Under the pieces are notes generated by a model. The model worked only from the letters and a program-made list of their open reading frames with translations. It was not told where the DNA came from and did not search any database. DNA of 32,565 nt. Origin: Microcystis aeruginosa Ma_MB_S_20031200_S102. Its GTDB lineage: Bacteria > Cyanobacteriota > Cyanobacteriia > Cyanobacteriales > Microcystaceae. The position numbers and the translations under genes are program-made. Positions within the stretch are counted from its first letter, which is position 1. Each line of letters opens with the position of its first letter. The stretch spans positions 1-32,565 of the forward strand of contig SFBI01000069.1 in the NCBI GenBank assembly GCA_007095845.1, in the 5' to 3' direction. Shown here one piece after another: positions 6,196 through 8,460 of the stretch.

Positions 6196-6210
6196 TTTTG
6201 TCCTAGTATC

Positions 6211-6380
6211 GGCTCTCCCGGGTTTGGTGGGTAAAATGTATTCTAGGATACAGTCCTGCTGGCGAGGGAGTGGAACGAACCACAAAGACACAAAGGACAC
6301 AAAGATTGATCGATCATATTGTAAGTTAAACTGGTCGCAACGCGCTCGCTACGCGAGATCACGCAGAACCTAGAAGAGCC
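6211..6380. mobile_element. MITE-like dispersed repeat, copy A
   Basis: This 170-base segment closely matches 22974-23115. Both copies begin GGCTCT and end AGAAGAGCC, so short terminal inverted repeats bound the unit. Neither copy codes for anything, and no clear target duplication is seen. Compared with copy B, this one carries about 24 extra bases (roughly 6333-6358) containing the palindrome CTCGC-TAC-GCGAG. Both copies lie immediately downstream of a plus-strand gene (here the Nudix hydrolase). Confidence 0.75.
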
Positions 6381-6568
6381 AAATAACTGGAAGGTTGATA
6401 CTTGGCTATGGATTTGGTAGCATGGCGGCGGAAAAAATGTGCTTATTATGGGCAAACCACAAATCTTTATCGGAATTCCCCTAGTTCCTCACCAGACTAA
6501 ACCTCTAACCCCCAGAATCTGCTAAGTTACCTAGTAAATCAGTAGCGACTACACTGGTAGAAACCAAA
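6381..6568. other. Upstream region of the TIR-FGE gene
   Basis: Non-coding remainder between the dispersed repeat and the TIR-FGE gene. No promoter or Shine-Dalgarno sequence stands out in front of the GTG at 6569. Confidence 0.4.
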
Positions 6569-7936
6569 GTGAAGAAGAAGTCAGAGATCCAAATTTTCCT
6601 AGCTCACGCTAGTGAGGATAAACCAGCAGTTTTGGCACTGTATAACCGCCTCAAGCAAGCGGGATATAAACCTTGGTTGGATGAAAAAGACCTGATTCCG
6701 GGTCAAATTTGGCGAGATGAAATTCCGAAAGCGATTAAAGCTAGTCAAATTTTTCTGGCCTGTCTGTCAGCGAAATCGGCTAAACAGGGATACATCCAAC
6801 GGGAGTTGAGGATTGCACTTGATACCTTGGGACAGATGCTACCGGGGACAATTTTTTTTATTCCTATGAGGTTAGAAGAATGCGAAATTCCTGATCTGCG
6901 AAGTGCAGAAGTTGGCTTGAATCTGCGAGATATTCACCGGCTTGATTATTGGGAAGAAGACGGATTTGAGCAACTAGAAAGAGCAATTACCCATCAGTTC
7001 AAGCTTGAACCGGAAGAGCTAAAACAACCAGTAATCGTTCCAGAAGAGCTAAAACAACCGGTAATCGTTCCAAAAGAGCCAAAACAACTGTTATCAGTAT
7101 TTAACTTTGAGATCGTGGGAGTAAATGCGAAGGGTGAGCAAATCAAAAAAGAGTTGAAACAGTCCCAATATTTCAGCGAAGATTTGGGCAACGACATCAC
7201 CTTAGAAATGGTTGCCATACCGGGGGGAACATTCACGATGGGTTCACCGGCAAATGAGAAATATAGTTATGATCGTGAACGCCCTCAACATCAAGTCACC
7301 GTCCCCCCTTTTTTTATGGGTAAATATCCCATCACCCAGGCCCAGTGGAGAGCGATCGCTGCAACCGCTAAAATAGACATCGACCTAGAGACAAACCTTT
7401 CTAAATTCAAAGGGGATAAGCTACCCGTAGAAAGAGTCAACTGGTATCAAGCAACAGAATTCTGTAAACGACTATCAAGGGAAACAAAACAGGAATACCG
7501 ACTACCGAGTGAGGCGGAATGGGAATACGCCTGTCGTGCTGGAACCACCACCCCGTTTTACTTTGGGGAAACCATTACGGGGGAATTGGCCAACTACGAT
7601 GCCAGTAATACCTACGCCGATGAACCGAACGGAGAATATCGACAAAAAACAACTCCCGTGGGACAATTTCCCCCAAACGCCTTCGGCCTCTACAATATGC
7701 ACGGCAATGTCTGGGAGTGGTGCGCCGATACTTGGCACGATAACTATGACGGTGCGCCGACCGATGGCAGTGCTTGGATAGAAAATGGTAATGATAATCG
7801 TTCTCCTCTGCGGGGCGGTTCTTGGTCCTGCGATCCGGATCTCTGCCGTTCCGCTTGCCGCTACTTCGACGCCCGCCGCGACTACTCCTACCACTACGGT
7901 TTTCGGGTGGTGTGCGGTGCTGGGAGGACTTTTTAA
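6569..7936 (+). CDS. TIR domain - FGE/C-type-lectin fusion, candidate DGR target protein
   Basis: A 455-residue cytosolic fusion. Residues 7-140 form a TIR domain: FLAHASED strand, BB-loop-like LIPGQIW, and SAKQGYIQRE with E79 where NAD-cleaving TIR enzymes have the catalytic glutamate. A linker (149-176) contains a 10-residue repeat (EELKQPVIVP, two copies plus a partial third). Residues about 210-450 are a formylglycine-generating-enzyme/sulfatase-modifying-factor domain (IPGGTFTMGSP, NVWEWCADTW, LRGGSW, GFRVV). This fold is used by many cyanobacterial DGR target proteins as a diversified ligand-binding lectin. The C-terminal 40 residues have the composition of a variable region. The start is a GTG with no strong ribosome site; no ATG occurs nearby. 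Inference: a sensor whose binding face is diversified and whose TIR domain acts as effector, possibly in defence. A plain, non-diversified FGE-like protein is the alternative. Confidence 0.85.
   Translation: MKKKSEIQIFLAHASEDKPAVLALYNRLKQAGYKPWLDEKDLIPGQIWRDEIPKAIKASQIFLACLSAKSAKQGYIQRELRIALDTLGQMLPGTIFFIPMRLEECEIPDLRSAEVGLNLRDIHRLDYWEEDGFEQLERAITHQFKLEPEELKQPVIVPEELKQPVIVPKEPKQLLSVFNFEIVGVNAKGEQIKKELKQSQYFSEDLGNDITLEMVAIPGGTFTMGSPANEKYSYDRERPQHQVTVPPFFMGKYPITQAQWRAIAATAKIDIDLETNLSKFKGDKLPVERVNWYQATEFCKRLSRETKQEYRLPSEAEWEYACRAGTTTPFYFGETITGELANYDASNTYADEPNGEYRQKTTPVGQFPPNAFGLYNMHGNVWEWCADTWHDNYDGAPTDGSAWIENGNDNRSPLRGGSWSCDPDLCRSACRYFDARRDYSYHYGFRVVCGAGRTF
7013..7099 (+). repeat. 30-bp in-frame tandem repeat in the TIR-FGE linker
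   Basis: Two almost identical 30-base units (7013-7042 and 7043-7072) and a diverged third (from 7073) encode EELKQPVIVP twice, then KEPKQLLSV. They form the hinge between the TIR and FGE domains. Near identity at DNA level points to recent slippage, so linker length probably varies between strains. Confidence 0.85.
7808..7912 (+). other. Candidate DGR variable region (VR)
   Basis: The segment encoding LRGGSW (from 7808) to GFRVV (to 7912) has a fixed framework typical of DGR target proteins: LRGGSW, P, CRSA, R and GFRVV. Between these, the positions that are usually Asn in related templates are here S420, C421, D422, D424, L425, C430, Y432, F433, D434, R437, D438, Y439, S440, Y441, H442 and Y443. 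Every one of these codons ends in C or T, as expected if AAC/AAT codons had been randomised at A positions. Only nine of 105 bases are A. No template repeat or reverse transcriptase is visible in the window, so any retroelement would act from elsewhere. Confidence 0.6.
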
Positions 7937-7997
7937 CCCTTTTCCTCTTTTTTCCCTTTTTACCCTCATTCCCTATTTTTTCTCTTTTCTTTTCTTT

Positions 7998-8024
7998 CCC
8001 GCCCTTAGGCGGGTCGATTTTTTT
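7998..8024 (+). terminator. Hairpin plus T-tract after the TIR-FGE gene
   Basis: CCCGCC (7998-8003) pairs with GGCGGG (8008-8013) around the four-base loop CTTA, followed after four bases by seven T (8018-8024). This fits an intrinsic terminator for the TIR-FGE gene. DGR variable regions are often followed by a GC-rich hairpin with a four-base loop that assists homing, so a second role is conceivable but unproven. Confidence 0.65.
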
Positions 8025-8111
8025 GAGAAAATGGCGTTAATGTTAAATTTTATACTAAATCCAGTTATTAAAAACTGATTATTTATTCCCCCTTTTGTCG
8101 TTTGCATGAGT

Positions 8112-8144
8112 AGAAAACGGGTTTCTCGGAGAAACCCGTTTTCT
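8112..8144. repeat. Perfect 15-bp palindromic hairpin
   Basis: AGAAAACGGGTTTCT (8112-8126) and its exact reverse complement (8130-8144) flank the loop CGG. There is no T-tract beyond the stem on either side. It could act as a bidirectional terminator between the converging TIR-FGE and J-domain genes, or be one member of a dispersed palindrome family. Confidence 0.75.
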
Positions 8145-8203
8145 GTGGGTTACTCAACGGATTTAAAAATTAGGTAAAACCCTACACTCAGCCCCCAGGA
8201 AAA

Positions 8204-8446
8204 ACTTTTTCAGCATACCCTAAATAGGGTCTGCTGAAAAAGTACGGGCGAAGCATTCGGATAGAAAATCTACGGTTTCACCGATAGGTTATTGCCCGAA
8301 TGCTTCGCCCCTACAGGACACGAGCCGATGAAGACGCAAGGTTTTGAACGACGATTCTCTCAAAATCTTGCACCTGTGAGAGCAAAACAGAACCCTAAAA
8401 CCCTTACCTCGTCTATATTTCACATTTATTCAGCATACCCTAAATA
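8204..8446. repeat. Nested inverted-repeat block bounded by an 18-bp direct repeat
   Basis: Three hairpins lie in a row. Arms 8204-8222/8225-8243 are 19 bp with one mismatch and a two-base loop. Arms 8246-8260/8296-8310 (GGGCGAAGCATTCGG and its complement) are perfect. Arms 8336-8347/8360-8371 are 12 bp with one mismatch. The word TTCAGCATACCCTAAATA occurs at 8209-8226 and exactly again at 8429-8446, as if it flanked an inserted segment. No protein is encoded. It has the look of a small non-autonomous mobile element or a nest of them. Confidence 0.65.
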
Positions 8447-8460
8447 CTGGCTTTCTCTCT

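Follow-up and report, generated by a model that had tools for sequence, protein, structure and literature searches.

Known Targets of DGRs and the Window Locus

The available text of Vallota-Eastman et al. 2020 (PMC7517822) describes dispersed remote targets of cyanobacterial DGRs, with N-terminal signaling domains that include TIR-like ones, and one paralog of PCC 7120 with remnant TR-VR (template repeat–variable region) homology and no reverse transcriptase (RT) nearby; it also puts forward the idea of a loss of diversification parts. Dore et al. 2024 (PMC10907252), in the portions available, link hypervariable C-type-lectin/FGE domains to TIR, CHAT, MoxR, and VMAP components, and present DGR-diversified putative antigen sensors of conflict systems, with action in trans and disrupted loci. 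Plasmid-borne, remote, and TIR-bearing DGR parts have therefore already been published, as far as the available texts go (PMC7517822, PMC10907252, PMC8867640). In the accessible parts of three papers, the DGR survey of PMC8144416 could not see remote targets, PMC7517822 mentions Microcystis for orthocaspases, and group II intron RTs are the only RTs given for Microcystis NIES-843 in PMC8934634. The kind of target analyzed here is thus already known, and its unusual part is the "orphaned repertoire" aspect.

The window, i.e., the whole stretch of 32,565 nucleotides that was analyzed, is a complete contig (G000:C186) of Microcystis aeruginosa Ma_MB_S_20031200_S102. G000 designates the window's own genome, a draft assembly of 4.57 Mb in 219 contigs (completeness 99.68); other G-codes are further Microcystis genomes in a set of 12, and C-numbers are contigs. 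The gene under study and its domains are the following.

6569 to 7936, forward strand: TIR-FGE gene, very probably a remote DGR target (GTG start, 455 aa)
6593 to 6976, forward strand: TIR domain, residues 9–136 (Pfam TIR_2, 91.3 bits)
7205 to 7912, forward strand: FGE-sulfatase (C-type-lectin-like) domain, residues 213–448 (Pfam FGE-sulfatase)

Like the proteins in the available text of PMC7517822, the window gene has a C-terminal C-type-lectin/FGE-like domain, with a VR near its 3′ end. The remote targets described there are tied to a DGR of the same genome; the lineage matched by the window VR is, by contrast, no longer whole in the window's genome. Also in contrast with that account, Microcystis VRs of three lineages sit together. 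The resemblance to the systems in the available parts of PMC10907252 extends to another contig, C9, where a DGR adjoins genes for CHAT-TIR, VMAP-C, a MoxR-like AAA ATPase, and a SAV_2336/GUN4/FGE protein. The window gene differs from those systems in being a stand-alone two-domain TIR-FGE. The cyanobacterial clade of that work is almost wholly multicellular (63 of 64 species), whereas Microcystis is a colony former of single cells. In the VMAP ternary conflict systems (PMC7159879, in the part available), cyanobacterial FGS (FGE) domains have DGR-made variability, as here; unlike in those systems, neither a MoxR nor a vWA partner is encoded near the window gene.

Our reading is that 7808–7912 is a remote DGR VR written by a lineage that we call beta, whose DGR has decayed in this genome, so that the VR is probably now fixed. 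We consider this reading very likely.

The Variable Region and Its Adenine-Specific Relation to Templates

As expected of a DGR target, the VR lies close to the 3′ end of its gene, whose product has a C-type-lectin/FGE fold. Its layout, with codons numbered along the protein, is as follows.

7808 to 7914, forward strand: VR, with matches to the C9 and G003 TRs (TR alignments)
7808 to 7825, forward strand: 5′ constant part (LRGGSW), identical to the own TR
7826 to 7834, forward strand: variable codons 420–422 (S C D)
7837, forward strand: third base of Pro423 (CCG); A in the G003 TR (CCA), and hence a template-A position in that lineage too
7838 to 7843, forward strand: variable codons 424–425 (D L)
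7856 to 7858, forward strand: variable codon 430 (C)
7862 to 7873, forward strand: variable codons 432–435 (Y F D A)
7880 to 7897, forward strand: variable codons 438–443 (D Y S Y H Y); the G000, G003, and G009 TRs have one more codon here
7898 to 7925, forward strand: 3′ constant part and flank, common to the lineage-beta TR of G003 and not to the own TR; a DGR initiation (IMH) site would lie here

The 105 bases of 7808–7912 comprise 9 A, 37 C, 31 G, and 28 T, and the sixteen codons interspersed among the fixed words (LRGGSW, P, CRSA, R, RR, GFRVV) end in C or T throughout, for which the chance is about 8e-5 at the rate of 0.55 of the remaining FGE domain. The nine adenines and sixteen such codons on which the earlier note had based its proposal were recovered as exact counts. 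Its statement that no retroelement lies within 32 kb also holds, the window having neither an RVT_1 match nor a second TR/VR-like copy. Folding and an inverted-repeat search next to the VR gave no convincing hairpin (DNA folding z of −0.87).

Over the first 75 nt, the best-fitting template is the TR of G003, from which the VR differs at 16 of 22 adenines and at a single one of the 53 other positions (Fisher test, 1.3e-10). The own TR, on C9, gives 16/22 and 2/53, respectively; the TR of G009 gives 14/20 and 7/55. Over the whole length, the VR departs from the own TR at 20 of 29 template adenines and, elsewhere, at 5 of 78 bases, with one 3-base gap. The tail of the VR is one codon short, and no template in the 12 genomes fits it exactly. 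Differences between template and VR lie essentially at template adenines, which is the hallmark of a DGR VR.

Comparison with other VRs gives the same picture. When columns are called conserved at 85% or more agreement among 30 other distinct VRs of equal length, the window VR, left out of the calculation, has the consensus base at all 64 conserved columns; conversely, all 22 adenine columns of the G003 TR (first 75 nt) vary among these 30.

An Intact DGR on Another Contig

The whole own assembly has one RVT_1 match, on C9. The gene order there is CHAT-TIR, VMAP-C, MoxR-like AAA ATPase, SAV_2336/GUN4/FGE gene, Avd, RT, TR, and a second FGE gene. The TR is the A-rich near-copy beside a DGR-type RT for which the earlier note had suggested a genome search, and it is accompanied by an Avd gene (NF033474, E = 1.4e-40, 137.8 bits for a cut-off of 80).

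C9:10513–10622: A-rich TR, near-copy of 7808–7914, just downstream of the RT

The motif [IVL]GxxxSQ marks DGR RTs; it is present as IGNLTSQ, together with YVDD, in the RTs of C9, of the G009 plasmid, and of G003. The best PDB sequence match of the C9 RT is 8ub7, which we take to be a DGR RT. With RT, Avd, and TR elsewhere in the genome and the adenine-specific relation to the TR, the claim that 7808–7912 is the VR of a remote DGR target is well supported.

In both FGE genes flanking the C9 DGR, everything between GGTTCTTGG and the 3′ flank is deleted, so that both local VRs are gone. Their counterparts on p1FD4, a plasmid of M. aeruginosa FD4, have intact VRs. About 15 kb of C9 matches p1FD4, in rearranged order, and the remainder carries genes of chromosomal type (ftsY-, nagZ-, and rbfA-like, judged by eye from the sequence). 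Contig C2 of G009 is identical to p1FD4 over the 13 kb compared.

Besides its RT, p1FD4 (NZ_CP046974.1, locus L251; 8834–11319 and 25692–30293) has two avd genes and several FGE genes, which suggests one complete DGR together with a portion of a second. A 22-bp inverted repeat flanks both deleted VRs of C9 (locus L030, 7970–8090 and 11610–11720) and also occurs beside the TR; it is absent from the p1FD4 copy and was seen on C9 alone among the loci compared. It might have favored the deletions, or the assembly might be at fault.

Three Lineages and a Probably Orphaned Variable Region

Full-length DGR-type RTs are present in 4 of the 12 Microcystis genomes and fall into three lineages. Alpha comprises the RTs of C9 and of the G009 plasmid (98.6% identical to each other), beta the RT of G003 (74–75% identical to the alpha RTs), and gamma the chromosomal RT of G002 (66% identical to the others). 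Each TR has its own distinct 3′ flank. Of 109 VR-like segments with a clear flank, 91 have a core (the first 48 nt) and a 3′ flank that indicate one and the same lineage (alpha 11/15, beta 68/76, gamma 12/18), with 10 further segments unclear; because they disagree in the other 18, including G000:C136, flank type is an imperfect guide to lineage.

The window VR has a beta flank at 17 of 17 bases, and its first 48 nt show no non-A mismatch to the G003 TR and two to the own TR. Judged by these sequence matches, it belongs to lineage beta, and the intact alpha DGR of C9 is not its cognate. In the draft assembly of its own genome no intact beta RT with its TR was found, and the one intact DGR there does not have a matching 3′ (IMH-like) flank, the alpha TR flank being unlike that of the window. 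What the genome does have, on contig C15, is a C-terminal fragment of a beta RT, interrupted by stops outside one frame; its identity is 79% with the G003 RT and 60% with the C9 RT. No beta TR was found in the own genome, and the TR search of C15 matches only the VR of that contig. Partial beta RTs are found elsewhere as well, in G006, on the G009 chromosome, and on the 147-kb plasmid of NIES-2481, where the stretch is unannotated.

The cognate beta DGR is decayed and the alpha TR has a different 3′ end; hence, the window VR is probably fixed at present, and its rewriting probably inactive. The earlier note had described a diversifiable binding face; this probably applied only formerly, since the lineage that matches the VR no longer has a whole RT in this genome. 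In the sequence of events that we propose, mutagenic reverse transcription of a beta template, of the type still whole in G003, would have written the VR, random bases at template adenines giving random residues at about sixteen surface-type codons of the FGE/C-type-lectin-like fold. The beta DGR would then have decayed in this genome, leaving the RT fragment on C15 and no TR.

One alternative has the intact alpha DGR of C9 rewriting the VR in trans at present; this DGR has RT, Avd, and TR, and its TR has most non-A bases in common with the window VR. Action in trans on remote targets has been reported in other bacteria (PMC10907252, in the part available). However, window VR and own TR have 3′ flanks of different types, the C9 DGR has lost both adjacent VRs to deletion, and among the own-genome VRs of equal length none is an A-only product of the own TR, even when up to one other change is allowed; the one clean A-only product of this TR is in G005. 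Such rewriting is therefore unlikely. As a simple writer of the window VR, the C9 DGR was rejected, since flank and core fit the G003 TR better.

An intact beta DGR might also exist and be missing from the draft, given 219 contigs and several VRs at contig ends (C84, C210). The completeness of 99.68, the single RVT_1 match in the assembly, and the presence of a decayed beta RT piece argue against this, and we regard it as quite improbable. Decay of the beta DGR in this genome is the reading that we keep.

Variable Regions across Microcystis

The search of the 12 genomes with the own TR gave 123 matches, to which one own-genome segment (C56) was added by hand; of the 124 read, the core could be cut from 123, and removal of the four TRs left 119 VR-like segments, 6 to 15 per genome. 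With the TRs left out and each segment compared with the best of the four, 1838 of 3534 adenines and 435 of 7993 other bases are changed, the choice of the best TR lowering the latter figure. When GTDB contigs were screened for the TR pattern, a single record came up, a contig of Microcystis aeruginosa Ma_SC_T_19800800_S464; the same screen of viral contigs gave no match.

Some of the 119 segments do not appear to be DGR-made. One of these, G001:C1:2166193, is identical at the 26 residues compared to the own-genome paralog C160c, an FGE domain with the same framework words and no DGR variation. Such domains speak for regarding the window VR as part of an ordinary FGE domain with biased codons and no DGR. 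This is hardly credible in view of the TR, RT, and Avd and of differences confined to adenines, and the reading was discarded on the adenine-specific TR-VR differences together with the following strain comparison.

There are 107 cross-genome pairs with at least 93% upstream identity; these pairs share genes and are not independent. Fifty-five of them were excluded because their VRs are unequal in length; 35 have 0–2 VR differences, and 17 have 19 or more. Two of the last were dropped for length or template type, and in the remaining 15, with upstream DNA 94.7–98.0% identical, template-A columns differ at 313 of 480 positions and other columns at 54 of 1023. The window VR is in none of the 107 pairs; the evidence for its diversification comes from paralogs and homologs with 78–88% alike DNA.

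Differences between VRs could also stem from exchange within the large set of FGE genes, by recombination or gene conversion, and not from reverse transcription in this lineage. Some alleles recur across species (the 35 pairs with 0–2 differences), and the disagreement of flank and core in 18 of 109 segments suggests mosaics. Conversion, however, shuffles existing variants, and leaves unexplained both the variation at template adenines and the A-only products of TRs; as the source of the window VR we find it very improbable, and we retain writing by a beta DGR.

Eight VRs of TR length have no change outside template A and 13–20 changes at template A. Three are in genomes with an intact RT of the same lineage (one in G002 and two on the G009 plasmid), and five are not (G000:C19, G001, G005, G010, and G011). 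Allowing at most one non-A change gives 15 VRs, 4 with a matching intact RT and 11 without, absence of an RT being weaker evidence in drafts than in the single-contig G001 and the two-contig G011. From these sequence comparisons it appears that VRs outlive their writers.

Pairs with 0–2 differences make up 21 of 47 when both genomes lack an RT, 1 of 7 when both have one, and 13 of 53 when mixed. We had considered whether a frozen VR points solely to loss of the RT, and dropped this idea because same-allele pairs occur with and without an RT. One TIR-FGE allele, with identical VR and 600 upstream bases, is found in G003:C31, G006:C116, G007:C51, G008:C233, and G010:C83, and near-identical VRs are found in G001, G002, and G011. 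In these eight genomes the allele is also identical or nearly so upstream, which indicates recent common ancestry or transfer.

We put forward tentatively, as a view that may well prove wrong, that Microcystis keeps a standing chromosomal set of about 6–15 FGE-type sensors per genome, which would be rewritten in trans by visiting DGR lineages, some of them plasmid-borne, that then leave; there would be bursts of scrambling and otherwise fixed alleles, inherited or traded. In this respect the set would resemble an immune repertoire with a traveling element as its mutator. If our reading is right, a bloom-former of wide distribution has a large array of sensors made by DGRs, with the writers in a minority of the genomes examined. 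The clean VRs without a matching intact RT (5/8) set the generation of diversity apart from its inheritance, and DGRs as occasional visitors become a testable notion.

Fold and Predicted Function

Nine TIR-FGE homologs were compared with the window protein, one being an own paralog and eight coming from other genomes. At the variable codons the amino acid is different in 13/15, 15/15, and, seven times, 14/16 cases, against 24–45 of 208 codons in the FGE body, 1–3 of 20 in the VR framework, and 5–38 of 136 in the TIR domain. The changes are thus concentrated at template-A codons and not spread evenly over the domain, the latter being the outcome that had been named as counting against a DGR. 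Across an alignment of 83 FGE domains, each of the ten residues with the highest variability belongs to a template-A codon of the VR, and mean entropy is 3.05 for variable codons, 0.32 for the VR framework, and 1.13 for the body.

By sequence and by model, the FGE domain matches the folds of PvdO (5hha), FGE, and TvpA (2y3c). The last, a DGR variable protein of Treponema denticola, has the same fold by sequence (E = 8.8e-21) and matches the FGE model in Foldseek (E = 4.0e-13, TM of 0.64 on the target, 22% identity); the matched chain, unlike the window protein, has no TIR domain. The full-length structure model was poor (mean pLDDT of 47.6) and was left unused. The FGE-only model was fair (mean pLDDT of 75.0) and fell below 50 over most of the VR, so that the exposure of VR residues rests on the known fold.

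Cys421 and Cys426 (window 7829–7831 and 7844–7846) align with C336 and C341, the two catalytic cysteines of human FGE. The codon of Cys421 is among the variable ones, and 2 of 112 VRs have cysteine there; the pair itself is found in 2 of 112 VRs, the window VR among them. The window protein has its FGE-type cysteine pair by chance of its VR.

In the TIR domain, Glu79 aligns with the Glu of the WxxxEL motif in solved bacterial TIR proteins, presumably the catalytic glutamate of the TIR active-site motif, and the domain may signal as an NADase. By analogy with proposals for related conflict systems (PMC10907252 and PMC7159879, in the parts available), the FGE face would bind a ligand and the fused TIR domain would answer, the protein acting as a cytosolic conflict sensor in which a ligand-binding face is coupled to a TIR effector. 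TIR-FGE proteins would be tractable cases for studying the ligands of a DGR-made face and a possible switching of the TIR domain.

Genomic Setting

The window gene occupies a slot between a nudix gene and a DnaJ-like gene (window 6196–8460; loci L232–L238 and L215), whose occupant varies among genomes. The window has TIR-FGE there and G010 an FGE gene with a VR, whereas G001, G003, G004, G005, G006, and G011 have a type I R-M specificity subunit (PF01420). Of these six, G004 and G011 retain a 3′ VR remnant, and in G009 a TIR-FGE remnant without VR adjoins the DnaJ-like gene. At about 8220–8447 the window has a repeat of about 225 bp, with many copies among the matches listed in the Microcystis genomes searched.
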